Virus record (IMG/VR): IMGVR_UViG_3300029267_002897
Location: 1-64,000 of that record
Direction: 5' to 3' (one strand)
From: a virus
Length of the DNA stretch: 64,000 nucleotides
The notes beneath the pieces were generated by a model. The model made no database searches. It was not told where the DNA came from and saw nothing but the letters and a program-made list of their open reading frames with translations. The position numbers and the translations under genes were made by a program. The first letter of the stretch is position 1; each line of letters starts with the position of its first letter. Shown here piece by piece: positions 5,017-64,000 of the stretch.

Positions 5017-5673
5017 CTAGGTCCTCCGTACGCGCTCGTAGTTGGATTTGCGAGAGTCGAGGGTCATCCCGTTATCGAGCACGGCTTCGACCGGGGTATC
5101 TTCCGAGAATTGCGCAGGCCCCACGCTCGCCAGCCGTATCTTTACTTCTACCACTTCGTGAGTACCTGTTCGAAACGACCCCTTAGCACGGTTGCGCCAT
5201 TCCCCATCATCCAATCCCCACATCGGAGCTGGCCGGTCGATCAGACGCACTTTGTCTCCCGGCAAGAGCCGTAGCCTCAAGTTCCAACCATAATAAGTAG
5301 CTAGTTCCTCGGCGGTGACTACGCGATTTCCTACCACCCCGCTCCCGGTGGGTCCGAAAATAAGACCACGCCACTTGACCATCCGGAGGGTAATCCAAAA
5401 GCGGGCCTTCCCGCCCCGGTAGCTGTGCTCGCGTATGTAAATTTTCCCAACCCCCTTGAGATACTCGCGGTAGATGTTGAGCACCTCTGGCTGGAAGTGT
5501 TTGCGGAGATACTTCTTCGGCAGAAGCGGGGTCTGGAGCAGCACTCCTGAGCCCCGGTCTCTTTTTCTTTTTTCGGGTACACAGTCTCGCTGGAGTTCGA
5601 CGTATTCGGTCCCCATGAATTTCTCGTCGAAGAAGCGGCCCAGCTTGACCATCCCCTCGAAGAATCTTCTCAT
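5017..5673 (-). CDS. hypothetical protein, tandem paralogue of the 5670-6314 gene
   Basis: 218 residues. Its start (MRRFFEGMVKLGRFFDEKFMG) matches the neighbour's (MRLFYEGMVELGLFLEEKFLG), and both continue with a KKYL/RKFL helix, strands ending in FWITLRMVKW / LIVFLTLRKF, an LLPGD motif and a C-terminal strand region (VEAVLDNGMTLDS / ISVELDDGSELHA). The two genes are therefore a tandem duplication. The LLPGD-KVRLI segment looks like a small beta-barrel (SH3/KOW-like) fold; this is inference. ATGA overlap with the upstream gene. Confidence 0.8.
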   Translation of the reverse strand: MRRFFEGMVKLGRFFDEKFMGTEYVELQRDCVPEKRKRDRGSGVLLQTPLLPKKYLRKHFQPEVLNIYREYLKGVGKIYIREHSYRGGKARFWITLRMVKWRGLIFGPTGSGVVGNRVVTAEELATYYGWNLRLRLLPGDKVRLIDRPAPMWGLDDGEWRNRAKGSFRTGTHEVVEVKIRLASVGPAQFSEDTPVEAVLDNGMTLDSRKSNYERVRRT

Positions 5674-6314
5674 GGGGTTTTCCTCCCTAGTAAGATGTAG
5701 TCGTCGTGGTCGAGGACGTCGCCACGAGTGTACGCGTGAAGTTCGGAACCGTCATCCAACTCGACGCTTATGTTAGTTCGTTCGTCTGCGAAGTATCCAA
5801 CGTCCGTCACCGCCACTACCGCTCTAACCCACTGCGACGGGAGCGCGTCCTTATTGCGATACTTCCGGACATGTGCTCGGCTTGGCGGTACGAATACGCG
5901 GTCTCCCGGCAACAGCGGCATCTTCGGAAATTGCTGGTAGAGCTTGGCGACTCCCATGCCGTCTGCGGGTTTGCTTCCAGCTTCTATCGTGTAGCGGGAA
6001 CTCGGACCATATACGTATTCCTTGAACTTACGGAGAGTCAGAAACACGATGAGGCGGCCGATTTTACCGCCTTTGAGCTGGTAGTTGAAATCGCACACAT
6101 GTTCGAAGTAGCGACGGCGCAGCCGACGTATTTCGATGAGCACCGTGTCCTCGAGGAACTTTCGGCTTACCCGCGGCGTCAGGATACTCATGAACGCTCC
6201 CCGAGCGGAGGTCTTCCAGGGGTTCTCAATCAAGAAGTGGAACTCGGACAACCCCAAAAATTTTTCTTCGAGGAAGAGCCCGAGCTCTACCATGCCTTCG
6301 TAGAAAAGCCTCAT
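5670..6314 (-). CDS. hypothetical protein, tandem paralogue of the 5017-5673 gene
   Basis: 214 residues, clearly homologous along its length to the next gene: shared N-terminal MRLFYEGMVELG-type helix, central Lys/Arg-rich helices, LLPGDRVFVPPSR motif and an acidic C-terminal strand region. The N-terminal helix-strand-helix part resembles a stretched version of the smaller paralogue family in this operon. No catalytic residues are recognisable. Its ATG overlaps the upstream stop by 4 nt, so translation is likely coupled. Function unknown. Confidence 0.8.
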   Translation of the reverse strand: MRLFYEGMVELGLFLEEKFLGLSEFHFLIENPWKTSARGAFMSILTPRVSRKFLEDTVLIEIRRLRRRYFEHVCDFNYQLKGGKIGRLIVFLTLRKFKEYVYGPSSRYTIEAGSKPADGMGVAKLYQQFPKMPLLPGDRVFVPPSRAHVRKYRNKDALPSQWVRAVVAVTDVGYFADERTNISVELDDGSELHAYTRGDVLDHDDYILLGRKTP

Positions 6315-6610
6315 GACTTCATGTCCTTCAGCACGAACACGACGTAACCCTCTTTCCTGTCGTACCGCACCGGCCTTACGACCATTCGATGTTTCGACGC
6401 TATGTCCTGGAATTCCGGCATCACCACCTCCCGAAAGAACCTGGGTTCCATCGGTTCGATAGCGTAAGACCAGGGCGCATGATGGTGGAGCGCCAAGGAC
6501 TTCGATGCGCAGTAGGCCCCCATCCGCTCCAGCATATCGAGTTCTGCACTAGCGAAAAATGTGCTCTGCGCATCTTCGCGCAGATAGCGCGCCATCTCCT
6601 CTCGTTCCAT
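6311..6610 (-). CDS. small paralogue-family protein, first gene of an 11-gene operon
   Basis: 99 residues: helix (MLERMGAYCASKSLAL), strand (WSYAIEPM), then the family motif RFFREVVMPEFQDIASKHRM and a final strand (GYVVFVLKDM). This makes it one of at least six related small proteins. It is the promoter-proximal gene: AGGAGG lies 9 nt before the ATG at 6610 and a TTGGTAGAAGA box about 27 nt upstream. All genes down to the left edge overlap or nearly touch, so they probably form one transcript. Confidence 0.8.
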   Translation of the reverse strand: MEREEMARYLREDAQSTFFASAELDMLERMGAYCASKSLALHHHAPWSYAIEPMEPRFFREVVMPEFQDIASKHRMVVRPVRYDRKEGYVVFVLKDMKS

Positions 6611-6636
6611 GTTGACACCTCCTCCCGTCGTTGGGT

Positions 6637-6647
6637 TCTTCTACCAA
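6637..6647 (-). promoter_or_regulatory. TTGGTAGAAGA-type promoter box
   Basis: Minus-strand TTGGTAGAAGA, 27 nt upstream of the ATG at 6610 and just before a GGAGGAGG Shine-Dalgarno. The same box recurs before most independent accessory units in the window. The role as promoter is inferred from position and recurrence. Confidence 0.6.
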
Positions 6648-6659
6648 TTCAAGAGGAGG

Positions 6660-6672
6660 TTTACGGAGTAAA
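6660..6672. repeat. perfect TTTAC-NNN-GTAAA palindrome
   Basis: TTTACGGAGTAAA, non-coding, overlapping the T-run of the terminator of the 6710-7108 gene. One of seven perfect copies in the window. Confidence 0.8.
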
Positions 6673-6698
6673 AAAGAAGACACCTAGTGCCTTCTTTT
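6668..6698 (-). terminator. intrinsic terminator
   Basis: On the minus strand GAAGGCAC-TAG-GTGTCTTC forms a hairpin followed by TTTTTT, directly after the stop of the 6710-7108 gene. Confidence 0.75.
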
Positions 6699-6709
6699 CG
6701 TAGCGGGCG

Positions 6710-7108
6710 CTACTCCTGCATCTCGAGGAATCTCCGCAGCTCCTGCCGACCGTAGAAGCGACGACCCGGGAACTCCGCGACGGAATACACCTTGATGCAA
6801 TCGTCGCAACCTCCCCCATCGCAGTTGCCGCAATCGGTCGACGTCTCGAACGGGCTGCCCCGGTAGAGGTGGCGCGACCACCCCTCGAACGTGATGTCGA
6901 AGCCCTCGGGAAGCTTGGACTCGATGTTGAGCGGCTTCTGGTGCTCCTCCATCATCGCGTACGCTTTCTCCTGCGCCTCGGTGAGACTGTCCGCTTCCAC
7001 TTCAGCGAACTTGACATCCGGACGGAGTTTCCAGGTGTTCTTGACTCCACGCTGGAAAAGCTCCTCGATGTACGAGCGGTCCTCGTACTTCACGATGAAC
7101 GTAGTCAT
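6710..7108 (-). CDS. hypothetical protein with a Cys cluster
   Basis: 132 residues. The first 60 look like a small alpha/beta domain (FIVKYEDRSYIEELFQRG, EADSLTEAQEKAYAMMEE). A tight Cys cluster, CGNCDGGGCDDC, lies near residue 95 and probably binds zinc. Monocistronic: AGGAGGTG precedes the ATG at 7108, a TTGGTACAAGT box lies 21 nt upstream, and an intrinsic terminator follows. The N-terminal EAQEKA pattern resembles the 12859-13089 protein (TKEEARQKAV). Function unknown. Confidence 0.8.
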   Translation of the reverse strand: MTTFIVKYEDRSYIEELFQRGVKNTWKLRPDVKFAEVEADSLTEAQEKAYAMMEEHQKPLNIESKLPEGFDITFEGWSRHLYRGSPFETSTDCGNCDGGGCDDCIKVYSVAEFPGRRFYGRQELRRFLEMQE

Positions 7109-7128
7109 GGCAACACCTCCTGTTACGT

Positions 7129-7139
7129 ACTTGTACCAA
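7129..7139 (-). promoter_or_regulatory. TTGGTACAAGT-type promoter box
   Basis: Minus-strand TTGGTACAAGT, 21 nt upstream of the ATG at 7108, immediately after the preceding unit's terminator; same consensus as at 6637 and 7995. Confidence 0.6.
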
Positions 7140-7168
7140 AAGAAAAGGGGCGCTCAGGCCCCTTCTCT
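7138..7168 (-). terminator. intrinsic terminator
   Basis: Minus-strand AGAAGGGGC-CTGA-GCGCCCCTTTTCT followed by TTTT, 3 nt after the stop of the lipoprotein gene. Its T-run overlaps the promoter box of the next unit. Confidence 0.75.
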
Positions 7169-7170
7169 AG

Positions 7171-7971
7171 CTACTCTGCCAGGACCATCCGCATGAAGAA
7201 CCCCCAAGAGCTGGTGCCCTCGGGACATTCGTCTGCGGATGCTGCGCGCGGAGTGACCCCGATGAAGTACGGCGACACTTCGTAGTTGTCGGTGGGCTCG
7301 GACATGTAGTCGAAGACGGACGAGTTCACCATCGTGTAGTAGAACGCGAGCGTGTAGGTCTCGCCATCCTCCAGCGTGTACTCGATGTCGGAGCGCTGCC
7401 ATGACTCCTCCCCTAGACCGTCCACCTCCGTGCCGGACGCGATGAGGTTTCCTTCGGGGTAGTCGTACAGCCGTGCCGAACACCAACCGGTCTCGGGCTG
7501 GTTGATGAGCCATTCGAACGCGAGCAGTTCCACCGTCTCTTGCACTGTGAAGACGTAGCCCTTCGTAGCCTGGGTCGAGATGCCGTCGTTATCTATGAAG
7601 GTCCCGTCCTCCGGCGTGAGGTCGATGACTTCTTCCGGCGGTCCAGCGTCTGCCTCAGTGTCCGTCTCGGTGTCATCACCACCATCAGGCTCATCAGTAT
7701 CACCAGTCCCAGTGTCTGTCCCCGTGTCAGGTCCAGTATCGGTGTCAGAATCACTATCGCTGTCGCTGTCAGAATCAGAGTCACTATCGGCATCGGTATC
7801 AGTGTCAGTTCCTCCATCAGCGTCCGTATCAGCATCTGTATCGCTGTCCGCATCCGTATCTGAATCCACATCTGTGTCACCTCCGGCATCGGGTTCCCCG
7901 GGCGCATCGATTCCCAGGTCGTAGCAGCCACATAACATGGCTACCATTATTGGGAGCATCCAAGGTTTCAT
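7171..7971 (-). CDS. secreted lipoprotein with Asp/Ser/Thr repeat stalk
   Basis: 266 residues from the ATG at 7971 (AAGGAGG upstream); the open frame extends to 8280 but that start would lack the signal peptide and ribosome site. Residues 1-16 form a lipoprotein signal ending LCGC. A low-complexity stalk of about 90 residues (repeats of DTD, DSD, DAD, TGT) follows, then a globular C-terminal domain of about 150 residues (WLINQPETGWCSARLYDYPEG, YTLAFYYTMVN) that looks like an all-beta module. Such D/T stalks are common in Myxococcota-type lipoproteins, so it may come from the host and act on the infected-cell surface, perhaps in superinfection exclusion; this is inference. Confidence 0.8.
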   Translation of the reverse strand: MKPWMLPIMVAMLCGCYDLGIDAPGEPDAGGDTDVDSDTDADSDTDADTDADGGTDTDTDADSDSDSDSDSDSDSDTDTGPDTGTDTGTGDTDEPDGGDDTETDTEADAGPPEEVIDLTPEDGTFIDNDGISTQATKGYVFTVQETVELLAFEWLINQPETGWCSARLYDYPEGNLIASGTEVDGLGEESWQRSDIEYTLEDGETYTLAFYYTMVNSSVFDYMSEPTDNYEVSPYFIGVTPRAASADECPEGTSSWGFFMRMVLAE

Positions 7972-7994
7972 CACACACCTCCTTTTGTCTATTA

Positions 7995-8005
7995 TCTTGT
8001 ACCAA
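7995..8005 (-). promoter_or_regulatory. TTGGTACAAGA-type promoter box
   Basis: Minus-strand TTGGTACAAGA, 24 nt upstream of the lipoprotein ATG at 7971; matches the consensus exactly. Confidence 0.65.
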
Positions 8006-8024
8006 GGAGATGCGCGCAAAGAGC

Positions 8025-8056
8025 AAAAGAAAAGCGCCCGGGTAGGCGCTCTTCTC
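8025..8056 (-). terminator. intrinsic terminator
   Basis: Minus-strand AGCGCC-TACCC-GGGCGCT hairpin followed by TTTTCTTTT, just after the ParB-like gene. Confidence 0.75.
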
Positions 8057-8063
8057 GGGTCGG

Positions 8064-9092
8064 TTACCGGCGACCCTTCCGGATGTTGGTTCGGATTTTT
8101 GCCAAGTCGTAGGTAGGAGCCATGCGCACGATGGCTTTCGACTTGCCGCCCTTGCACCAGCGGTTCCACGTCTCGAGCGTGAAGTAGGTGAAGACGGATT
8201 GGTGTACGCGACGTACGCGTCCTTCGCGCTCGCGCTTTGTCAGCGCGGACGAGCTCACGCATACGTTCTCGTTCACCCAATCTCGCCAGCGGGCAGTGGG
8301 GTAGTCGTCAGTGACGCCGCCGTCCCGTAGCTCCATGATGAACGGAGTGAGGTCCCGGCTGGGGTCCTTGACTTGTTGCCAGATGTAGTAGAGTGCGACG
8401 AGAATCGGGATGTTCATCAGCTTGTTGGCGCGTTTCATGTTCTTGTGTACGAACTGGTCCAAGTACTGTGCGAAATCGACCAGAGCCTGATGGTCTCTGA
8501 AATTCTCCGCTCTACGCATGATGGAGTAGTTCTTGAAGCCGCCGTGCTCAGGGAACTTGTGGTCATTCACCTCGGTCATGAACCAGATAGTGGCCAGTGC
8601 CCCGCGCAGTTTCAGGTGTAATTGCGCCAACTCTGAGCGTGAACCTGTAATCGCCCGCACTTCGTCTGGCGGCTTGCGGACGCTCCCCCGCCCGTCCCAA
8701 CCGGTGTATACCGCTGCGGCGTCATCCAGGTTATCGCAGTACACAGTTTCCAGGACGACTTCCATGTCCGGCTCGATGTATTCCGGGAAGTTGTAAAAGA
8801 GGTACCGAGTGTGTCGCCCGTTCCCGGAAAAGACCTCTCCGTCCTTTCCTACGCAAAGTTGTCCCCAGTAGAAAGCGTGATAGCGGTCGTCGTCAATCAT
8901 GTCTTTCAAGTGGGCAATACGTTTCGGGTCTAGAGGCCGTTCGATCTCCGGGCAAGCGGGGAGGGTATACAGCTCGTTCACGAGTTTCCGGGTCAGCTTC
9001 ATGCATTCCGTCTTCGAGCGTTTTATACCGCGCTTCCGACGGTTGGGGCGCAGCTGCTTCAACCTTTCCTCTTTCTGTTGTTTAGTGACCAT
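8064..9092 (-). CDS. ParB/sulfiredoxin-fold protein
   Basis: 342 residues. A very basic N-terminus (RPNRRKRGIKRSK) precedes a ParB-like core at about 50-125: PKRIAHLKDMIDDDRY, GQLCVGKDGEVFSGNGRHTRY, then VETVYCD-type strand. The GNGRHT motif corresponds to the nucleotide-binding GxxRH loop of ParB/Srx-fold proteins, some of which are CTPases or nucleases. The C-terminal 200 residues are helical and unassigned. It overlaps the small zinc protein upstream by 11 nt and ends in an intrinsic terminator. DNA binding is likely; binding to the dispersed TTTAC-NNN-GTAAA sites is only a hypothesis. Confidence 0.7.
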   Translation of the reverse strand: MVTKQQKEERLKQLRPNRRKRGIKRSKTECMKLTRKLVNELYTLPACPEIERPLDPKRIAHLKDMIDDDRYHAFYWGQLCVGKDGEVFSGNGRHTRYLFYNFPEYIEPDMEVVLETVYCDNLDDAAAVYTGWDGRGSVRKPPDEVRAITGSRSELAQLHLKLRGALATIWFMTEVNDHKFPEHGGFKNYSIMRRAENFRDHQALVDFAQYLDQFVHKNMKRANKLMNIPILVALYYIWQQVKDPSRDLTPFIMELRDGGVTDDYPTARWRDWVNENVCVSSSALTKREREGRVRRVHQSVFTYFTLETWNRWCKGGKSKAIVRMAPTYDLAKIRTNIRKGRR

Positions 9093-11147: not shown

Positions 11148-11336
11148 TCAGTAGTCCTGCCAGTCATGTGAGTAGTCATCTTCCCAAATAAGCGCATCAC
11201 TGTCCAGGTCTGGGTCCCGCAGATACTTAGTGTCGAAATAAACCTGCCGCGAAAAGGGCATTTGAAAGACCGTGTTCTCGGGCCATACGGTAACTATGGA
11301 TTCAAGCACTAATTGGTCCCAGTTACGTTCCAACAC
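11148..11336 (-). CDS. small acidic hypothetical protein
   Basis: 62 residues starting with GTG at 11336 (AAGGAGGTGTGTT upstream). Aromatic and acidic C-terminus (LIWEDDYSHDWQDY). No recognised family. First gene of the unit running left to 9965; promoter-like CCGGTACAAGA lies 33 nt upstream. Confidence 0.7.
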   Translation of the reverse strand: MLERNWDQLVLESIVTVWPENTVFQMPFSRQVYFDTKYLRDPDLDSDALIWEDDYSHDWQDY

Positions 11337-53721: not shown

Positions 53722-53751
53722 TAAAAAACCCAACCCCTAGTAATAGGGGTA
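53722..53751 (-). terminator. intrinsic terminator of the RNAP operon
   Basis: Minus-strand ACCCCT-ATTACT-AGGGGT then TGGGTTTTTT. The hairpin includes the stop codon of the 53737 gene. Confidence 0.75.
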
Positions 53752-54285
53752 CATCCCATATTGAGGTTGCGCTGGCAACATCCCTGTGCGGGGAGGCGGA
53801 GGGGGCGGGGCTTCTTTCGGAACAGGTTTTCCGGCCAGCGTTTGTCCTAATCGTCCTGCTGCCCCACCGAGACGCTCGCCTATTGGCGTCGCCAACATAG
53901 ACCCCAACATCCCGTAAGCACGCCAGGTCCCCAGGCCAGCAGCGGTCCCCCCGAGAATCTTGCCGATTTCTTCAGCCTTGTTCGGAGCATCGCTCTTATA
54001 TACCTTGTACGCTTGATAGGCCGGGAGCCCGTAGAAGAGGCCACCCATCAGAAGTCCCATCTTGCCTTTTCCGGGGTCGAATCCCGCTCGAATAAGTCCT
54101 CCGGGCTTCAGAGCCTTCCCAGCCATGATTTCTTTCGTGGCCTGGAGGGGACTCCCAACGGCAATTTGCTTGAAGTTTTTGGCGAACCTCTGCCCGAATC
54201 CTCGAAGTGCGGGCCAGATGCGAGCCTCCTTGGTTATTCCCAGAGAGGCTAGTGTAGCGTTGTAGCCTGCTTCGAAATTCGACAT
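53737..54285 (-). CDS. virion-type protein at the end of the RNAP operon
   Basis: 182 residues. MSNFEAGYNATLASLGITKEARIWPALRGFGQRF is a virion-type N-terminus; a hydrophobic Gly-rich middle follows (LLMGGLFYGLPAYQAYKVY), then Pro-rich linker (PKEAPPPPPPRTG) and the Pro/Tyr tail QPQYGMYPYY. Co-transcription and TGATG overlap with beta'C suggest a virion or membrane partner of the RNA polymerase, but this is inference. Confidence 0.75.
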   Translation of the reverse strand: MSNFEAGYNATLASLGITKEARIWPALRGFGQRFAKNFKQIAVGSPLQATKEIMAGKALKPGGLIRAGFDPGKGKMGLLMGGLFYGLPAYQAYKVYKSDAPNKAEEIGKILGGTAAGLGTWRAYGMLGSMLATPIGERLGGAAGRLGQTLAGKPVPKEAPPPPPPRTGMLPAQPQYGMYPYY

Positions 54286-56084
54286 CAGTATCGTCCCTCT
54301 TCTCCCTGCCCAAATTCTACGCCAAAAACATAGGCCGGGATGGGATTTGTTCCGTGGACATTCGTAACATCACCAAAGTGCGCAGCTTGTTGAAGCGTTG
54401 TCTTCAGGTTCCGGTGCGCCAAACGAGCCATCCAATCTGGGTTAAGAAGCGGGGCTCTAGTAGCGGGCTTCATCACAAACTCAACCTCAGGAGCCCGGGG
54501 TGCAATGATGACATCCTTGATTTTCTCTTTGTGGAGTGCCCGCTCCACCGAAGGAGTCACACGAGTCCCGGCGGAGAAGTGGAGGTGCTCTTTCCCGAGG
54601 GTCTCCCCGCGCGCTTGCGTCAATGGAAGAGTCTTCGTATTACCCCGTAAAATCGAACGGAAGTGATTGTAATCTACAATATCGCCGGGAATGAAGTTCC
54701 TACCTGGGTCATCCACGATACGTACGTGATTGAGTTCGCCTTTGGCCAACAGCTCGAAGTGTCGTTGGTCGAGATTACGTCCTTGGTTCTTGTAGAGTTC
54801 CTTCAACGTATCGACCATATATCGACGTCCAGCTCCCAAACCTTTGAAGGCTACCACCTCATCTGGCTTGGGTATCCCACCGCTCAGCGCGTCTCCGCGT
54901 TCGACCTTCTGTCCCACCTTGGCCACAACGTTGATGTTGGGAGTCACGTAATGTTTGGTGCTGCCGACGTAGACGAAATGTCCTCCTTGCGGGGCCTTCT
55001 CAATCTTCGTGACCTTCCCTTCTTCCCCTGCCAGGGTCGCCTTGTTCATGAACTGCCGAGGTGATTCTGTCATCTGGCGAAAGCCCTGCATGCCGTGAAC
55101 TTGCAAGCGGTCGCTCTTGGCCGTACGAACACCATGCTTCGCATTGAGGGCGAACTGGGTGAGCGGTTCCGCCATGGCCTGGGCTGCTCGGATGCCAACA
55201 TTGGTGCCTACTGTGTGAAGGTTCCCGCGCTCATTGAGACCCTGGCACTTCTGGCAGACCCCATCACCGGCCTCACAAGTCATCGGCGAACGCACCAGGA
55301 TTTTCTTCTTGCTCTTGGCCAGTCGGGCTTGCACCTGTGGACTGATGAGGGTGTCTTTCCGCACTCCCCCTTCACTGCGAGCCAGATAACGGTCTTGAAC
55401 ATCGGGGTTTTTGGGGTCCATGAGGATACCATTGACCGTTCCGCAATCCTGTTCGGTCACCACGATATCGTTCATGTTGTTAATGAGAATCTTGGACAGC
55501 TCTCCGGGCTCGGACACCGCAGTGCTCGACTTGATGGTATCCGAGATAGCTTCGTTGCCCGCAGCCCAGTAGTCAGCAGCCGATAACCCTTCACTGTAGG
55601 AACGTGGGATGAGCCAAGGAGTAACTTTTCCATTGGCATCCCGAGCGTATACCGGGCTACCGACAATCTTCATGTACTGAGTGGGAGAACCGCGAGCACC
55701 GCTCTGTACTTGCTGCGTGAGACTCCCGCGGTGCTTCATGGCGGCATCAGTAATTTTTCCGTGGAGCTGCTCCAGTATCTGGCGCTTCTGTGCGGTTGTA
55801 CGTGCCGCCTGAAACTTCTGACGGAAGGGACGCATCTGCGCATCCCGTTTCCGGTATTCAGGCTCGATGTCATCCAGCCCGATGGAGAGGCCTTCCTGCG
55901 TCGCAAGCTCATCGCCTAGACGTTTAAGGCCTGCAATAGTCGTGGTGTATTGCGTAGGGTCCTTGCGCGCCAGGTCATTCATCATTTGGTTGAGGCGCTT
56001 CTTTCCCACGGGGGAGTTGACCTTGAACCCAGAAGGCAACTGGGTATTCAAGAGCCAGCGCCCGAACGGTTGACCTTCAGCCAT
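54285..56084 (-). CDS. RNA polymerase beta' subunit, C-terminal part
   Basis: 599 residues. It starts at FGRWLLNTQLPSGF, equivalent to the beta' segment after the active-site domain. It contains the bridge-helix region PRSYSEGLSAADYWAAGNEAISDTIKSS, the zinc site formed by Cys214 (EQDCGT) and Cys270, 277 and 280 (MTCEAGDGVCQKC), and the trigger-loop block VGIRAAQAMAEPLTQFALNAKHGV (about 295-318). An SBHM-like insertion and YKNQGRNLDQRHFELLAKGELNHV then FIPGDIVD follow as in bacterial beta'. Together with the beta-beta'N fusion it makes a complete catalytic core; no alpha or omega is seen. Confidence 0.9.
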   Translation of the reverse strand: MAEGQPFGRWLLNTQLPSGFKVNSPVGKKRLNQMMNDLARKDPTQYTTTIAGLKRLGDELATQEGLSIGLDDIEPEYRKRDAQMRPFRQKFQAARTTAQKRQILEQLHGKITDAAMKHRGSLTQQVQSGARGSPTQYMKIVGSPVYARDANGKVTPWLIPRSYSEGLSAADYWAAGNEAISDTIKSSTAVSEPGELSKILINNMNDIVVTEQDCGTVNGILMDPKNPDVQDRYLARSEGGVRKDTLISPQVQARLAKSKKKILVRSPMTCEAGDGVCQKCQGLNERGNLHTVGTNVGIRAAQAMAEPLTQFALNAKHGVRTAKSDRLQVHGMQGFRQMTESPRQFMNKATLAGEEGKVTKIEKAPQGGHFVYVGSTKHYVTPNINVVAKVGQKVERGDALSGGIPKPDEVVAFKGLGAGRRYMVDTLKELYKNQGRNLDQRHFELLAKGELNHVRIVDDPGRNFIPGDIVDYNHFRSILRGNTKTLPLTQARGETLGKEHLHFSAGTRVTPSVERALHKEKIKDVIIAPRAPEVEFVMKPATRAPLLNPDWMARLAHRNLKTTLQQAAHFGDVTNVHGTNPIPAYVFGVEFGQGEEGRY

Positions 56085-57580
56085 TAGAATTTCCCCGGCA
56101 TAACCGGCGACGGACCCTGAGCGTAGTCAATCGGGATGTGGTCAGGCTCAGTCCAAGTCGTCGTGCGGTTGAGGCGTCCCTCCACATCATCAGTGCCTTG
56201 AGCATCACGGTTCTCTCGCCCCGCAGCCGTCGGTATATCCGAGAGGGCACGAGCAAGCTGTCCTGCCGGGAGCCCCTCATCCTCGACATCCATTGGGGTT
56301 TCCAGCTCGGTGTTAGAGGGTTTCTTGCCCACGAATTTACTCTTGTCGACGCCCAACTTCTTGAGCATAGCTGCACGCCCCGCTTCTTTGATTCGGCGCA
56401 TCAACCATGAATTTTCTTTTGACTTGAACAGCATGTACCTCTCCGGATTTCCGTCCACGTCTCTCTCAAATTTAATTTTATCGGGCGAAGACGACAAGAC
56501 CTTTACAGGTTCCTTGTGCAAAATTTGAACGACGCCCTTTCCATACCCCTTCCGAATCTCCTTGGGTTTGCGTTCCCCGAAGGTGAGAGCGTACCTCGCC
56601 GTATGTGTCGGAGTCTGTACCGCCAGAAGCGGGCTATTGCCTTGCGGGAACTGCGCCTTTGGCACTGCCCAGGAGTGGGCATGCGTTGTTCGAGGGTCGA
56701 CGAGGCGAAGGTCCCAATGCTTCCCGGCCCGTTGCGCATCGTGTTCTTGGATTGCGAGAGTCCAAGTTTTCGGTCGCTTGAAATCGGGGAGGGGGTATGT
56801 TTTTCGCTCTTGAGGGATACCGGGAGCGAACTCGGTCTTGCCCAACACCGTTTGTGGTGTCGCATCTTTCTGCGGGTTGAACTTCTCGAGCTGAGATGGA
56901 ACGAGCGGTACTGCTACGAGACCCGTCTCTGCGTTGAGAGAATACGGAGCCCGGATAGAGCCTTTTGGGTGCAAGGTAGAGACATCCAACCGAATCTCAT
57001 CTGGCCTCGGCGTCTTGAGCGTGAGTTCCGTATGCCGTTCAGGGAGCTGTTTCAGATACTCCTGGAGCATTCCACGGGCTTCATTGGTCGGTCGAGGCTT
57101 ATCTAGTTTTCCACGCACATGAAATCCCCGCCCACCAGAAAACGCCAGCTCAACGGCTTTGACTGCGGGGATGGTGCGTAGGAGGTCATAGACAAATTTT
57201 GTAGGACCCTTGGTGTCCTCGGTATTCTTGTTTTTGCCCGGGTCGATATCCACCCAGACCTCATCCGTCTTCTCCCCGACCGTAGGATGGAACTCGGTGT
57301 AGCGTCGAGAGGAATACCAGTCGAGGTCCTCGGGGTTCTCAACACGAATGGGCTCATTCTTCTTGCGGTAGCGCCTGACGATTTGCTCATCCGGGCTTCT
57401 TGACTGGATTGCCAAAAGGTCCCGGTTTGCCAGGGCTGCCAAGACACGCTGCTTAATGACCGGGTTAGAGTAGTAATCGTGCACTTCCTGCTTGGTGACA
57501 GGGTTTCCCGAAGTCAGGACTGCTTGCGCATTGCGTTTGGCCCAGACTGCGGCGCGTTGTGCTGGTGAGGCGTAAGGCAT
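56084..57580 (-). CDS. LigD-like primase-polymerase plus 3'-phosphoesterase fusion
   Basis: 498 residues with two recognisable domains. Residues about 75-235: archaeo-eukaryotic primase fold of the LigD PolDom type, with EVWVDIDPG (Asp111 and Asp113), FSGGRGFHVRG (147-157), IRLDVST (Asp199) and RAPYSLNAETGLVAVPL. Residues about 272-398: LigD 3'-phosphoesterase, WTLAIQEHDAQRAGKHWDLRL (His280, His288, Asp290, Arg292), SWAVPK, TPTHTARYAL (His326, Tyr330). All main catalytic positions are present. The ATP-dependent ligase domain of LigD is absent and no Ku is seen. It lies exactly between the RNAP halves, coupled on both sides, so it is co-expressed with them. Confidence 0.85.
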   Translation of the reverse strand: MPYASPAQRAAVWAKRNAQAVLTSGNPVTKQEVHDYYSNPVIKQRVLAALANRDLLAIQSRSPDEQIVRRYRKKNEPIRVENPEDLDWYSSRRYTEFHPTVGEKTDEVWVDIDPGKNKNTEDTKGPTKFVYDLLRTIPAVKAVELAFSGGRGFHVRGKLDKPRPTNEARGMLQEYLKQLPERHTELTLKTPRPDEIRLDVSTLHPKGSIRAPYSLNAETGLVAVPLVPSQLEKFNPQKDATPQTVLGKTEFAPGIPQERKTYPLPDFKRPKTWTLAIQEHDAQRAGKHWDLRLVDPRTTHAHSWAVPKAQFPQGNSPLLAVQTPTHTARYALTFGERKPKEIRKGYGKGVVQILHKEPVKVLSSSPDKIKFERDVDGNPERYMLFKSKENSWLMRRIKEAGRAAMLKKLGVDKSKFVGKKPSNTELETPMDVEDEGLPAGQLARALSDIPTAAGRENRDAQGTDDVEGRLNRTTTWTEPDHIPIDYAQGPSPVMPGKF

Positions 57581-60500
57581 CTAACCTATTTTCACTCGCG
57601 TCCCTAATCCAATTTTACCTTCATGGTACGCCTTCATCGCTTCACCCCGAGTCTTAAATTTTTTAACTACGCCTCCGGAATCCTGCTCAGATGCATGTGC
57701 GATACCCATGATGGCTTCGTGCTGCGGGAAGACCATGAGCTCATCCCGGGACTTGTCTCCGAAGAGTAAGTTGGAGAGCGTCATCTTCTTCACATCGTCA
57801 ACAGCTTTGGACTGCACCGGCACATGAACCATCATCGTATCGCCGTCGTAGTCCGCGTTCATTCCTTTCTCAAGGAACGGATTGACCCGAATGGTCTTGC
57901 CCGGAATCGGTCTGGCGTACGCCCCAATCATGTTGTAGCGGTGAAGAGTAGGAGCCCGGTTAATCATCACCGGCCTATCTTTGGCCTCTCGCAGCATCGC
58001 CTCTCGCGCAGCCGGATGTTTCTCCTGAATCATCTGCTGGGCCTGAAGAGGTTGGTAACCCTTCTCCACCAGACGTTTGGTGGTGAATTTCCCGTACATG
58101 GACCACAGCATATCTTCAGGGAGGCCCACTTCATCCATGCCGAGCGTTACATCGGGAACAATGGTGCCGCGGCCAGATACGTCCTGTGTACGGCGCATGA
58201 GTTTAGAGTGGAAGTACCCGAACTTGGGACTTCCCTTACCGGAGATATATGTGAGGAACCCCTTGTGCCCCCGCGCTTTGGACTTGGCAGTGATAGGGTC
58301 ATTTACCCCGTAAACTGCCCCGACTGCTTGTTGCAACGCAGGCCGTAAACGCTGCTCTTCGTCGGGCAGCAGCTTGGACTGCTTGACATCTTTGAACTGG
58401 TTGTTCAAGTACACGAGGTCGCGGTAGAGAGGGTTGATGTCCCCGTAGATGAGTTCCTGGCCGCCTTTACCGGGAAGGATTGGGCGCACTACTGGGGGCA
58501 CCACTGGCACTTTGGAAATGACGTAGGCGTCACCTGGAGTGAGGCCCTGCTTCTTGAGAGCCTTGATATATTTGAGCTGCTTGACATCGTTATCCAGCGC
58601 AGAACCTTTACGTCCCCGGAGAGATTTGTAGAGTTCTTTTTCCCTGGTATCCAGGTCCAGCTTTCCGAGTTCGCGCTTGATGTGCCGCGCACCCTTCTCC
58701 CGGATAGCCTGGTCTAGTTGGGAGTTAGTCATCCCCAGGAGACGTCGAACAGGGTCACGGAATACGGGGTTGACCACCGGCTCCGCTAAAGCGACGTGGG
58801 ACCATTTTCCTCCGCGAACGCCCCCGGTAACTGCGGGGTCGAAGAGTCCGCCACGCTCGGGCTTCAAGTCCTTGGCACGCACCAACTTGGCGTCCTTGAT
58901 TTCTCCTGAGGAGAGCTTCAAGGTGTCCGCGTCCGTGAGAGGGGCAAGTGCAAGCTGGTTCTTCTCCCGGTCGACGCGCACTCCGGCCCCGGTAAGCATC
59001 GTAAGGAACTTGTCAGTAGCGAAAGTGGTCTTTGGAGGTGGCGTAGGGTATCCGAGCTGCATGTTGCGCCACCACTCGTCATTCTTTTGGCTCTTCAGAG
59101 TTGCGGCTTCTCGTAAGACGTTCCGTGCTCCATGGGAGAGGAGCGCGTCGAACTCCATACGACCCAGCACCTTGGCGCTCTGAGTACCCCCCTTAGCTGG
59201 TTGCTGGTTTACGTCGTAATTCTCGATGCCCCGTGCTGAGTAGTTGGTGTCCGTGGACTTGAAGAGCTTCATGATATATTGCCGCCCAACAAGCACCCCG
59301 GGAATCTTGCGCCCGGTACGCGGGTCGTACACCGTTTCCTTGTCTTTGAGTCCGTGTTTCTTGAGTAAATCCTTGGCCCATTGAACGTTGTTGCGCCCAG
59401 AGAAGTTCTCTACGGCAATCGGCTTTCCGGTCTTCTCCGCGACCTTCCCCACGGCAGTCTCGATAATCTGACTCGGGTTGATACGAGATACCACCCCGGC
59501 GGGAGTCATCAGGATGTCGATAGGCCTATCCTTCTCGTCTCGCACCATCTGGTCGTCGGGAACGATTTGCGAGATGACCCCTTTATTGCCGTAGCGCCCA
59601 GCAACCTTGTCTCCGATGCCAGCAGGTTCTCGTGTCTTGACAGTAATGGCGATTCGCTTGGGCGTCTTCACGACGTCCACGACTTCGCCAGGGTGGTCAT
59701 GGTCCCAATCATGTACGTTCTCACGGAACGGACGCGCCAGTGACTTGTGCAGCCGTCCAAGAAGTACGTCATCCGCGGTGAGCTGTGTCTTGCGAAGTCC
59801 CATGACGAGGGGGTCACCTGGATTAATCTGCGTACCCGGCGCAATCACGCCTTCTTTATCGATAGGCTTGTATTGGTCCTTGGTATATCCGTGTCCATAG
59901 TAAGTGCGGTGCTTGTCCCGGCTGAATGTCAAGTCCGGGTCTCGAGGGACCACGATTTTGTACATGCGCTCGGACGTGAGCTTTTTCGCGCCGCCCTCAC
60001 TGACGACTACGGCATCGTTGGAGTTCGCCCCGTCATAAGCCATGAAGCCTACGCGCAGATTCTTGCCCAGCGCCAGGACCCCGTTATCCGTGAAGTTGGA
60101 CTCGCCCAAGCGCTGACCCGCAGAAACCTTGTCACCTTTCTGTACTCCAAGTTTGTGGTCAAGGTACGTTTTGGCTGCGAGAGGAAAGTTGGTTTCATAC
60201 GGAATCTTTACATACTTGTTGCCCTTGGCTCCGGTCTTCTCGCCGTCCGGTTGGACGTAGATGTAGTCCTTGTCGATTTTCTTGACCACCCCAGACACCG
60301 GGGAGACTGGGTTAATGACCCCACCCATGATGCGCTCGAAGGTAGGCCCCGTCTGCGACTTGACCTGGACCATGGGAGCTTCTCGGCCCACCAGAGAGAG
60401 GGCCTGAACCTGCATCTTCGAACCCATGATGGCCCGGTTACCTTGTGCTGATTCGAGGAACGGCACCAGGTTTGTCGCGGGGCTATAGAGTGCCGAAGCA

Positions 60501-61933
60501 TGTGGAATCTGGTACTGAACCCGCGACGCTGCAAGGCGTTTGATTTCACCGTTATCAAGGGCTTCTACTTGTCCCCTCAACTGTTGTCCCGGAAAAGCGA
60601 CGACCGAGCGTTGCAAATCCCCTGCGCGGATGTACTTACCCCGGCGCGTTTTCGCGTCCAGCACGGGCACGTAGATGTTTCCACGCGCATCGCGCTTTGC
60701 CATCATCGCGGCGCGGACATCGATCCCGGCCCGGAAAGACTCAGGAGTGCGTATAGGGTCCAACGCTCCCATCTGGGTGACATGTACCTGTCGTGCTTCC
60801 ATGGGAATCGCACGCTCACTCGAGATGCCACCCTCCCCGAGGGAAGTGACGCGCACCGCGGAGTCAATGAGCTCCATGGGATTCGTCTGCGTAGGAACTG
60901 ACGCAAGCTGGGAGCTATTGATGAACTTCACGAGGCCAGATGTAAACGGACCAGGGGGGATGATACGCTTCACGTCCGGAGTCGACTCGGACTTGATTGC
61001 TGCCTTCCGCGCAATCTCTCGTGCGTCCAGTTTGATACGCTCTTTGAAGAAATCATCGACGGAGTGGAAGGACTTGAAGTCCAGGTTATCCCGGTCGTCA
61101 ATCTCGTCCGCGTTCTTGAAGATGCGCAAGACTTTCCCCGAGGCGTCTAACAGGCTGTCGGGGGTTACTTCCCGGTATCCCTTGCCGAGGGTCTGACGGT
61201 TGACGTCGGGGTCCATCTTCGCTTCGGCGTAACGCGCAAATATTTCCCGCGTCTTCGCCTCGGTATCCGCACCGGCAGTGCGCCGGTACTCGGGAATGAC
61301 TTTCCCGTAGAGCTTGTCGATAGTGCGTCCCGAGTTTTTCCACAGCTTCTTGAAGTTCGCTTCGGCCAGCTGCTTCCCCCACGCTTTCGAGATACGCTCG
61401 TGGCTGACCCCGGCCCTCCGCAATACGGGGTAAAGGGGTACCTTCGTCGCGCCGTACTCGAGTTGCGGTTCACCCTTTTCGGGGTCCATACTCACGTTGA
61501 AGTTCGCGCCGCCCACGACGTTGAAGTTCGCTTCCAGAATCCCATTGGCACGCTTTCGTGCGTACACGCCGGGCTTCGGACGCACCATGTTGGAAATGGA
61601 GTACTCGTTGCCGCCTACGATGAGGGTGTGGCGTGGGGTGAACCATGGGACGCGAGCTAGCGTAAAGTTCGATGCCTCGCTCAGTACCTTCCCCTTGTTG
61701 TCGCGGAGACGAACCGTCCCTTTCACGCGCTCGAAGAGGGAGTCCCCCCGCAAGAGAGCATTCTTCTGGTCTGTCGATGAGAATTCTTTCGTATCGACTT
61801 CGAGGTTATCGACTTCGATAGTGCGGTTCCGGGCCTTGAGGGGAAACGACTCTTTCAACCCCTCTAAGACCTTGACACGAATCATGTCGCGCCGGGTCTC
61901 TGGGTCCACCAGAATGGGCGTAAGTTCGGGCAT
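57581..61933 (-). CDS. RNA polymerase beta-beta' (N-terminal) fusion
   Basis: 1450 residues. Beta part: VGGNEYSISNMVRPKPGVYARK (about 106-127), LDPIRTPES (391-399), SALYSPATNLVPFLESAQGNRAIMGSKMQ (470-507), FMAYDGANSNDAVVVSE, IGDKVAGRYGNKGVISQI (773-790), ILMTPAGVVSRINPSQIIET, then KVLGRMEFDALLSHGA. Beta' part from about 1020: PERGGLFDPAVTGG, SDI/NPLYRDLVYLNNQFK (clamp helices), DVSGRGTIVPD, RAPTLHRYNMIGAYARP and the catalytic NADYDGD (Asp1361, 1363, 1365). It ends KIGLGTRVKIG, where cyanobacterial gamma ends. The beta' N-terminal zinc ribbon appears to be missing. Confidence 0.93.
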   Translation of the reverse strand: MPELTPILVDPETRRDMIRVKVLEGLKESFPLKARNRTIEVDNLEVDTKEFSSTDQKNALLRGDSLFERVKGTVRLRDNKGKVLSEASNFTLARVPWFTPRHTLIVGGNEYSISNMVRPKPGVYARKRANGILEANFNVVGGANFNVSMDPEKGEPQLEYGATKVPLYPVLRRAGVSHERISKAWGKQLAEANFKKLWKNSGRTIDKLYGKVIPEYRRTAGADTEAKTREIFARYAEAKMDPDVNRQTLGKGYREVTPDSLLDASGKVLRIFKNADEIDDRDNLDFKSFHSVDDFFKERIKLDAREIARKAAIKSESTPDVKRIIPPGPFTSGLVKFINSSQLASVPTQTNPMELIDSAVRVTSLGEGGISSERAIPMEARQVHVTQMGALDPIRTPESFRAGIDVRAAMMAKRDARGNIYVPVLDAKTRRGKYIRAGDLQRSVVAFPGQQLRGQVEALDNGEIKRLAASRVQYQIPHASALYSPATNLVPFLESAQGNRAIMGSKMQVQALSLVGREAPMVQVKSQTGPTFERIMGGVINPVSPVSGVVKKIDKDYIYVQPDGEKTGAKGNKYVKIPYETNFPLAAKTYLDHKLGVQKGDKVSAGQRLGESNFTDNGVLALGKNLRVGFMAYDGANSNDAVVVSEGGAKKLTSERMYKIVVPRDPDLTFSRDKHRTYYGHGYTKDQYKPIDKEGVIAPGTQINPGDPLVMGLRKTQLTADDVLLGRLHKSLARPFRENVHDWDHDHPGEVVDVVKTPKRIAITVKTREPAGIGDKVAGRYGNKGVISQIVPDDQMVRDEKDRPIDILMTPAGVVSRINPSQIIETAVGKVAEKTGKPIAVENFSGRNNVQWAKDLLKKHGLKDKETVYDPRTGRKIPGVLVGRQYIMKLFKSTDTNYSARGIENYDVNQQPAKGGTQSAKVLGRMEFDALLSHGARNVLREAATLKSQKNDEWWRNMQLGYPTPPPKTTFATDKFLTMLTGAGVRVDREKNQLALAPLTDADTLKLSSGEIKDAKLVRAKDLKPERGGLFDPAVTGGVRGGKWSHVALAEPVVNPVFRDPVRRLLGMTNSQLDQAIREKGARHIKRELGKLDLDTREKELYKSLRGRKGSALDNDVKQLKYIKALKKQGLTPGDAYVISKVPVVPPVVRPILPGKGGQELIYGDINPLYRDLVYLNNQFKDVKQSKLLPDEEQRLRPALQQAVGAVYGVNDPITAKSKARGHKGFLTYISGKGSPKFGYFHSKLMRRTQDVSGRGTIVPDVTLGMDEVGLPEDMLWSMYGKFTTKRLVEKGYQPLQAQQMIQEKHPAAREAMLREAKDRPVMINRAPTLHRYNMIGAYARPIPGKTIRVNPFLEKGMNADYDGDTMMVHVPVQSKAVDDVKKMTLSNLLFGDKSRDELMVFPQHEAIMGIAHASEQDSGGVVKKFKTRGEAMKAYHEGKIGLGTRVKIG
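58302..58314. repeat. perfect TTTAC-NNN-GTAAA palindrome
   Basis: TTTACCCCGTAAA in the RNAP fusion gene (Val-Tyr-Gly-Val-Asn codons of the clamp region). Confidence 0.8.
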
Positions 61934-62702: not shown

Positions 62703-64000
62703 CTAGCCCATCCTCATGCTGGATTTGGCTTCCTGAGTCATGCTTGTTTGGTATTGTTCCCACCGCTGTATCACTACGGCGTAAAGCACTTGGTCAGATA
62801 CCTGAAGCTCATGCAGCCTGCTCCTGCGCATTCCTTCGTCCATCTGCGCAAGCTCCTGTACAATCATATCCGCCTGCCCGATGATTTGCTGCTGGTTGGT
62901 GGCGTTCCCACCGCTCTGAGCTTCCTGCAAAGCCTTTTCTGCGAGGTTGTTCTGTAACTTTTGGAGTTCGGCATTGAGTTCACGTTGACGCCGGTAGGCA
63001 TCGAGCGTTTCTTGCTTAATGCGTTCCTCTTCTTGCGAGAGGTCGATATCATTGAGTTCAGCCATTGTGGTGTCCGAAACGACTTGAGGACCGCCCTCTT
63101 TACCCTGTTGCCAGAGCTGAAGCATCATTCCCTGCTTGTTGTAGTCGTCCACCATTCGGAACTTGGTGAGGCTCACCGGTATTTTTTCCCAACCAAGGAA
63201 TTTCGAGCAGCTATCGTCCACCCACTGGAGCAAGTCCTTGAGGTCGTTGACGTGGGTTTCGAGCTGATTTTCAATGAGACGGAGGGTTGCTTCCATCCCG
63301 CTCTTCGTGAGACCCCCGTAAAGGAACTCAATCGGGATGCCAAGAGCGGCAACGATGTTCTTCTCGGCCTCTTGGACTTCCCCCAGAGTGAGTAACGCGC
63401 GTCCCTGACCCCCTACTTGGGTCATTCCGACGGGAATCGGTGCCCACATCGTGTGTAGAGGGTCTTTACGCCACATCTTAAAGTTGCGCGCCATTTCGTC
63501 GCGCCAGTTCTCGAGACTGATTTGCTGTACGGGGTCCGCGTTCCCGCTCTGTTGTGCGGGATGTATGATTCTAAATGGTACAAGGTATTCCAACGCGATA
63601 GCCTCGTTTGCTTTACGAAGCACCGCCGTATAGTGGAAGAGCTGCAACGCCGTGATAAGCGGGGGCAAACCCCACTGCGGGTTGATTCCAGCAGGGCCAC
63701 CTATCTTCATGTGGAAGACCGCATCTGGTGCAAACCGGAATGGTTTGTTCTTCTTGATGGCTTTCAAGAAGCCCATAGGCAATGTATCAATGAGAGTCTT
63801 GTGCCCGTCGTTAACGCGCTGGATGACCGACTGCGGAATCTCGTAGTAGTACACCGACTCACCCGTCATCGGATTGTGGTCGATGTCCATCTTCTTGGGG
63901 TCCCACCGGATGAAGTTGATATTCCGACTGAGCATCAACTTTCGATCTTCGACATCCTTCTCTTTGGCGCGCACAGCGGTACCGCATGCCCGACAGGTGT
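62703..64000 (-). CDS. portal protein (5' end beyond window)
   Basis: At least 432 codons; the frame is open to the right edge, so the N-terminus is missing. Portal-type blocks: LSRNINFIRWDPKKMDIDHNPMTGESVYYYEIP, DAVFHMKIGGPAG, GLPPLITALQLFHYTAVLRKANEAIALEYLVPFRII, GIPIEFLYGGLTKSGMEATLRLIENQLETHV and a helical Gln-rich C-terminus. CRACG near the edge hints at a zinc ribbon upstream. The portal forms the dodecameric DNA gate at the head vertex. Contains ACTACGGCGTAAA at 62771. Confidence 0.85.
   Translation of the reverse strand, partial: TCRACGTAVRAKEKDVEDRKLMLSRNINFIRWDPKKMDIDHNPMTGESVYYYEIPQSVIQRVNDGHKTLIDTLPMGFLKAIKKNKPFRFAPDAVFHMKIGGPAGINPQWGLPPLITALQLFHYTAVLRKANEAIALEYLVPFRIIHPAQQSGNADPVQQISLENWRDEMARNFKMWRKDPLHTMWAPIPVGMTQVGGQGRALLTLGEVQEAEKNIVAALGIPIEFLYGGLTKSGMEATLRLIENQLETHVNDLKDLLQWVDDSCSKFLGWEKIPVSLTKFRMVDDYNKQGMMLQLWQQGKEGGPQVVSDTTMAELNDIDLSQEEERIKQETLDAYRRQRELNAELQKLQNNLAEKALQEAQSGGNATNQQQIIGQADMIVQELAQMDEGMRRSRLHELQVSDQVLYAVVIQRWEQYQTSMTQEAKSSMRMG

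Follow-up and report, generated by a model that had tools for sequence, protein, structure and literature searches.

We identified, in a 64,000-nucleotide stretch of phage DNA (the window) that forms part of a 179,063-bp IMG/VR phage record (G000), a gene whose product fuses the polymerase domain (PolDom) and the 3'-phosphoesterase domain (PE) of LigD without a ligase and which is located within an RNA polymerase (RNAP) operon. The gene (56084..57580, minus strand) encodes 498 amino acids, comprising a LigD-type PolDom of the AEP primase-polymerases (residues about 25-262; 56795..57508), a PE (residues about 268-398; 56387..56779), and a C-terminal segment, or tail (residues about 400-498; 56087..56383), all on the same strand. 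A preliminary description, made from the letters of the window, had proposed both this ligase-free pairing of domains and the placement of the frame between two RNAP genes with an overlap into the second. Both proposals were borne out, the former by Pfam, NCBIfam, and the agreement of an AlphaFold model with PDB structures, and the latter by Pfam matches to the flanking genes and by the junction itself. Since domain matches, model-to-structure matches, and RNAP flanks agree, the PolDom-PE fusion in the RNAP operon is real. As to its role, we think it somewhat probable, judging from sequence, that the protein is a phage-encoded, Ku-less LigD-like DNA-end-processing enzyme whose products would be sealed by a host ligase or an unrecognised one.

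The fusion sits head-to-tail on the minus strand between a gene for RNAP beta fused to the N-terminal part of beta' (beta-beta'N; 57581..61933, minus strand; Pfam RNA_pol_Rpb2_6 and Rpb1_2, NADYDGD motif present) and a gene for the C-terminal part of beta' (beta'C; 54285..56084, minus strand; Pfam RNA_pol_Rpb1_5). The TAG stop of beta-beta'N directly abuts the ATG of PolDom-PE, whose own stop shares one base with the ATG of beta'C (TAATG), and this joining of three frames suggests translational coupling. Beyond beta'C lies a 182-aa protein (53737..54285, minus strand) with the N-terminal tag FEAGYNATLASLGITKEA, resembling in type the opening segment of the PolDom-PE tail, and 3' of its gene is a terminator-like hairpin with a T run (53733..53750, minus strand; a consensus match only). 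Upstream, and adjoining the RNAP genes, is a portal-type structural gene homologous to the Arash gp204 portal (62703..64000 of the window, minus strand), which spans 62703-64439 and extends beyond the window end. A promoter scan gave fewer matches than were found in shuffles. Elsewhere in the record are an SNF2-type helicase (64499-66595) and a PD-(D/E)XK nuclease (66829-67788), which adjoin the portal and RNAP genes on the opposite strand, and a reverse-transcriptase domain protein (87609-88799; L004:5609-6799, plus strand; RVT_1 1.7e-18, PHROG polymerase).

The polymerase assignment draws on profiles, structure comparison, and an alignment of 17 homologues. Pfam LigD_Prim-Pol (PF21686) matches residues 69-248 (E=5.8e-16; 59.3 bits against a curated cut-off of 27.4), and NCBIfam ligD_pol matches at 44.7 bits, below its full-domain cut-off of 214.7. 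In an AlphaFold2 model built from 17 homologues (mean pLDDT 76), PolDom and PE are mostly well predicted. In a Foldseek search with this model, NHEJ polymerases ranked first, the Methanocella NHEJ Pol 5dmu being the best PolDom match (1.6e-12) and the M. tuberculosis LigD Pol (2iry) following at 2e-12, and LigD PEs (3p4h, 3n9b) ranked next; PolDom identity to solved structures is only about 19%. The earlier placement of the polymerase region in the AEP superfamily is confirmed by the PF21686 score above its curated cut-off and by the AEP fold found with Foldseek; the domain is larger than the residues 75-235 first given. The metal residues D111, D113, and D199, as well as H98, S148, R197, and R210, are invariant in the alignment (17 of 17 homologues). 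Conversely, the nucleotide-binding His154 of the SxH motif (motif II) is His in the window and Tyr in 10 of the 17, so polymerase activity may be altered in those relatives. The motifs quoted in the preliminary description are all present, but owing to this substitution SGGRGFHV is not invariant among relatives.

For the PE domain, Pfam LigD_N/PE (PF13298) matches residues 278-353 (E=9.6e-8) above its curated cut-off, in keeping with the family to which residues 272-398 had been assigned, and NCBIfam LigD_PE_dom matches the region below its full-length cut-off. Foldseek matched the PE part of the model to 3p4h (1.5e-7) and P. aeruginosa 3n9b (7e-7), and identity to solved structures is 23-31%. 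Residues H280, H288, D290, R292, H326, and Y330, invariant in the same 17-member alignment, correspond to the six catalytic residues of the Methanocella PE (H40, H46, D48, R50, H82, and Y86; PMC4797286). Mutation of catalytic residues in close relatives had been raised beforehand as grounds for doubt, and neither the PolDom metal aspartates nor these six PE residues are mutated in any of the 17. Where the P. aeruginosa PE has E82, a glutamate connected with 3'-phosphatase activity, the window protein has P324, which is invariant in the clade described below; from this replacement mainly 3'-ribonuclease action is predicted. This glutamate is absent from some accepted PEs and hence is not strictly defining (PMC4797286). 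The replacement suggests an enzyme that is more a ribonuclease than a phosphatase and that may be weak in 3'-phosphatase activity.

The preliminary description had pointed to Ku and an ATP-dependent ligase as partners to look for in the rest of the genome, and profile searches of the 179-kb record, which is possibly incomplete, found neither. Ku (PF02735) was detected neither in this record nor in 16 related records, likewise possibly incomplete, and PF01068 found no ligase domain in the PolDom-PE protein or in the window's record. As PF01068 alone misses divergent phage ligases, being negative on records where a custom profile matches, we used custom ligase profiles as well, and these were also negative. 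ATP, NAD, and RNA ligases were all looked for and not found in the window's record, and in the other PolDom-PE records searched, all possibly incomplete, no Ku and no ATP, NAD, or RNA ligase was found either. With no ligase or Ku found in the record, the sealing and end-bridging partners would be missing or external, which tells against the end-processing reading.

A search with the PolDom-PE protein alone retrieved no relatives from IMG/VR or the phage collection and only weak LigD matches from plasmids; a single-sequence query was insufficient, and relatives were reached by alignment-based search. Two close phage contigs (L010 and L011) were reached via the window RNAP, PolDom-PE alignments yielded eight loci from two sequences and 33 from 17, and a beta'C alignment yielded 80. 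In a maximum-likelihood tree of 69 beta'C proteins, the window and 22 others form a clade of 23 sequences with 100/100 support, and PolDom-PE lies directly before beta'C as an open frame in all of these except L011, the sister of the window (22/23). There, PolDom and most of PE have given way to a cassette encoding an SNF2-type helicase and a DUF5662 protein, and the RNAP genes remain open. Identity to the window falls to 36% in the remaining PE stump, compared with 54-69% in intact PEs, whereas the L011 tail, at 48%, is the closest of all to that of the window, so the tail was apparently retained alone. By sequence, one acquisition and one loss would be the simplest history of PolDom-PE in the clade. 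In a motif scan of genome contigs, the matches listed were all to the archaeal PriS C-motif, and none of them pointed to a cellular donor. Separately, the beta-beta'N genes of L010, L011, L127, L131, L133, and L137 contain intein-like in-frame insertions at two recurrent sites, equivalent to residues 778 and about 1371 of the window protein (P0003). One site is directly 3' of the catalytic NADYDGD motif, and the window copy has no insertion.

The tail had not been separated from the enzymatic domains in the preliminary description, and in the AlphaFold2 model residues 401-498 mostly have pLDDT <50. A profile of residues 398-498 picks up short independent ORFs located just upstream of beta'C in phages without PolDom-PE, with a best E-value of 8e-8 (L066) and most between 1e-5 and 1e-2. 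By eye, tail and stand-alone proteins have a common layout, in which a tag helix 'GxxxALxxLG' is followed by 'AERLA', 'P(V/T)xW', and a 'G..P.SP' end. Despite the weak single E-values we accept this homology because the position beside beta'C is constant, and the fusion would thereby couple an end-processing enzyme to a resident RNAP-locus protein. We also observed that an N-terminal tag, 'M..xGxxxALxxLGxxKxA', recurs among the proteins encoded on either side of beta'C and in some PE proteins, its carriers including the window protein at 53737-54285 and, near beta'C, small or fused proteins of L022, L024, L031, L041, L043, L061, and L066. Counted near a Met over all loci and ignoring homology, the pattern gave 42 matches against 3-7 in shuffles, and it is possibly a packaging or docking signal. 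A second tag, 'KTANQIADEAL.K', appears in four distinct ORFs within a single locus and again in two further phages (L011 16881-20911, L010 16855-17175, and L015 about 11220-11260).

The LigD modules are arranged differently in related phages. At the RNAP site of PolDom-PE, L061 and L077 encode fusions of PE with an ATP-dependent ligase, and L066 and L064 encode PE joined to other domains. The nucleotidyltransferase motif KxDG is intact in the L061 and L077 fusions and does not vary among nine phage ligases compared. In seven Arash-like loci the interval from beta-beta'N to beta'C contains, on the opposite strand, a PE protein accompanied by a separately encoded ligase, while in an eighth (L083) the pair lies past beta'C. 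PolDom and PE are separate proteins in L139, where the contig RNAP is 37% identical, and in the 159-kb phage L140, for which no match to a multisubunit RNAP was detected, a ligase (PF01068 1.7e-16), PolDom, and PE occur in nearby giant proteins. Two records also contain PE within larger multidomain proteins elsewhere than the RNAP locus. Pol, PE, and Lig modules are therefore mostly, not always, at the RNAP locus, and their varied arrangements indicate that they travel as a set in these phages. The RNAP interval itself is an insertion hot spot with variable cargo (PE-ligase, PE-other, and SNF2 helicase with DUF5662). Among individual proteins, L077 encodes at the RNAP site (5237-8071) a 945-aa combination of PE, ATP-dependent ligase, DUF4269, and C39 peptidase, and in the phage of L140 and L164 (G037:53478-66334) PolDom is part of a protein of 1757 aa with a further match to rubrerythrin, ligase and PE being located in other giant proteins close by.

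LigD PolDoms are known to fill or extend paired 3' ends with a preference for ribonucleotides, and PEs to remove excess 3' ribonucleotides, which allows sealing by a ligase (PMC8656161; PMC4797286). We hypothesize that, in the window phage, PolDom would add (ribo)nucleotides to a recessed or paired 3' DNA end, that PE would then trim 3' ribonucleotides to leave a ligatable 3'-OH, and that a ligase from the host, of which the NAD+ ligase would be the simplest source, or an unrecognised one would seal the break or gap. Related phages provide such a ligase themselves; given that sister phages encode one at or near the same locus, these viruses probably bring their own DNA-end repair kit. We infer this biochemical activity, DNA rather than RNA as its substrate, the use of a host ligase, and the packaging considered next.

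Published virion mass spectrometry of Salmonella phage Arash, the relative characterised in most detail, found beta (Gp206) to be the most detected protein and beta' (Gp216) also abundant, with Gp210 and Gp213, encoded between the RNAP genes, likewise detected (PMC10585845). Window beta-beta'N and beta'C are 36% and about 30% identical to the virion RNAP of Arash, with the same split, though the Arash record contains no PolDom or PE, unlike the window phage. Virion presence is thus published for the homologous Arash RNAP only (PMC10585845), and by analogy with that 36%-identical phage without PolDom-PE it is plausible that PolDom-PE is packaged in virions with RNAP. PolDom-PE is fused to an RNAP-locus small protein, and its gene is translationally coupled to those of the probable virion RNAP; it may therefore be on hand, and perhaps packaged, at phage DNA entry or during DNA repair early in infection. 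More tentatively, and with rather low confidence, we suggest that PolDom-PE, tethered by its tail to the virion RNAP complex and injected with the genome, might begin the infection by processing genome ends or breaks, as a split form of NHEJ that belongs to the phage and works without Ku.

A joint process with transcription, as the preliminary description had surmised from the RNAP linkage, could mean that the enzyme travels with the phage RNAP to shorten or lengthen RNA 3' ends or R-loops. The surmise has partial support, in that the place between beta-beta'N and beta'C is conserved with coupled start and stop codons and the tail is homologous to a beta'C-adjacent protein, and 3' ribonucleotides are targets of the PE family (PMC8656161). 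PolDom is nevertheless absent from most relatives with this RNAP, L011 has lost PolDom and most of PE with its RNAP genes still open, the site is a cargo hot spot, and the modules occur away from the RNAP locus and in a record without an RNAP match. This last point and the PE-DNA ligase pairs at sister RNAP loci favour DNA-end or gap processing over a role in transcription, which we consider unlikely. The variable cargo of the RNAP interval is also consistent with a polyvalent-protein type of counter-defence or host-takeover cargo, delivered with the DNA and repairing nicks that host defences make in phage DNA or RNA, and some PE proteins, which are large and combine several domains, GNAT or C39 peptidase among them, resemble the polyvalent proteins of PMC5512222. 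We hold this to be improbable too, as PADLOC found no match among the window proteins and stable retention in 22 of 23 clade members is unlike a rapidly exchanged counter-defence gene.

Priming of replication, another role suggested beforehand, would have the enzyme act as primase for phage DNA, with PE removing RNA primers. The AEP fold and a PriS-like C-terminal motif (SIRAPYSLNxETGL) in PolDom are consistent with such a role, which we nonetheless regard as quite unlikely: the phage itself encodes a family A DNA polymerase and, adjacent to this, a weakly matched DnaG-like candidate primase (PHROG 4e-10; Pfam below cut-off). Moreover, PolDom is nearer to NHEJ PolDom than to PriS by fold and profile (59 vs 21 bits), and its gene lies among late and structural genes, away from replication genes; in its simple form this reading was rejected. 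A non-functional passenger or decaying LigD fragment, for which the missing ligase and the one truncated copy might speak, is very improbable, since PolDom-PE is under purifying selection, with dN/dS of 0.03-0.09 in each of its three segments wherever dS between close homologues is unsaturated and measurable, its catalytic residues are invariant in the 17 homologues, and its frame stays open at one site in 22 of the 23 clade members, which rules out an inactive remnant provided that the alignments are correct.

The domains of mycobacterial LigD are ordered Pol-PE-Lig. The window protein has in common with bacterial LigD (Mycobacterium) the PolDom and PE folds, their order, and the catalytic residues, but it is phage-borne, lacks the ligase domain, lies in an RNAP operon in a record without Ku, and has an added RNAP-locus tail. 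The archaeal NHEJ Pol and PE of Methanocella paludicola (5dmu, the best Pol match, and 5dmp) are also apart from the ligase; there they are separate proteins operonic with a ligase (PMC4797286), whereas in the window phage they are fused and without one. Use of NHEJ components by phages has a precedent in mycobacteriophages Omega and Corndog, which, according to Pitcher 2006 as cited in PMC7719229, combine a phage Ku with host LigD for genome circularisation. On that account they bring Ku and borrow LigD, while the window phage brings Pol and PE, with no Ku found. One survey looked for NHEJ components in about 3,000 actinobacteriophages and reported none (PMC7719229). The mReC phages, metagenomic Caudovirales that encode multi-subunit RNAPs (PMC7481178), resemble the window phage in their cellular-type beta and beta', and the main text of that study leaves ligase, primase, and phosphoesterase unmentioned. 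We found no description of a phage PolDom-PE in the literature searched. LigD PolDom and PE are known families, and the enzyme is not a new fold; the novelty lies in a Pol-PE that is carried by a phage and lacks a ligase, in its constant position within an RNAP operon, in the RNAP-locus segment fused to it, and in a family of alternative LigD-module arrangements.

Bacterial NHEJ has so far been viewed as cellular, with known phage cases contributing only Ku. The spread of Pol, PE, and Lig modules over a group of multisubunit-RNAP phages, in several combinations and mostly at a conserved RNAP locus, amounts to a natural dissection of LigD into its parts and makes NHEJ-like repair or circularisation of phage genomes testable. 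It also hints that a phage RNAP and DNA-end repair are physically connected.
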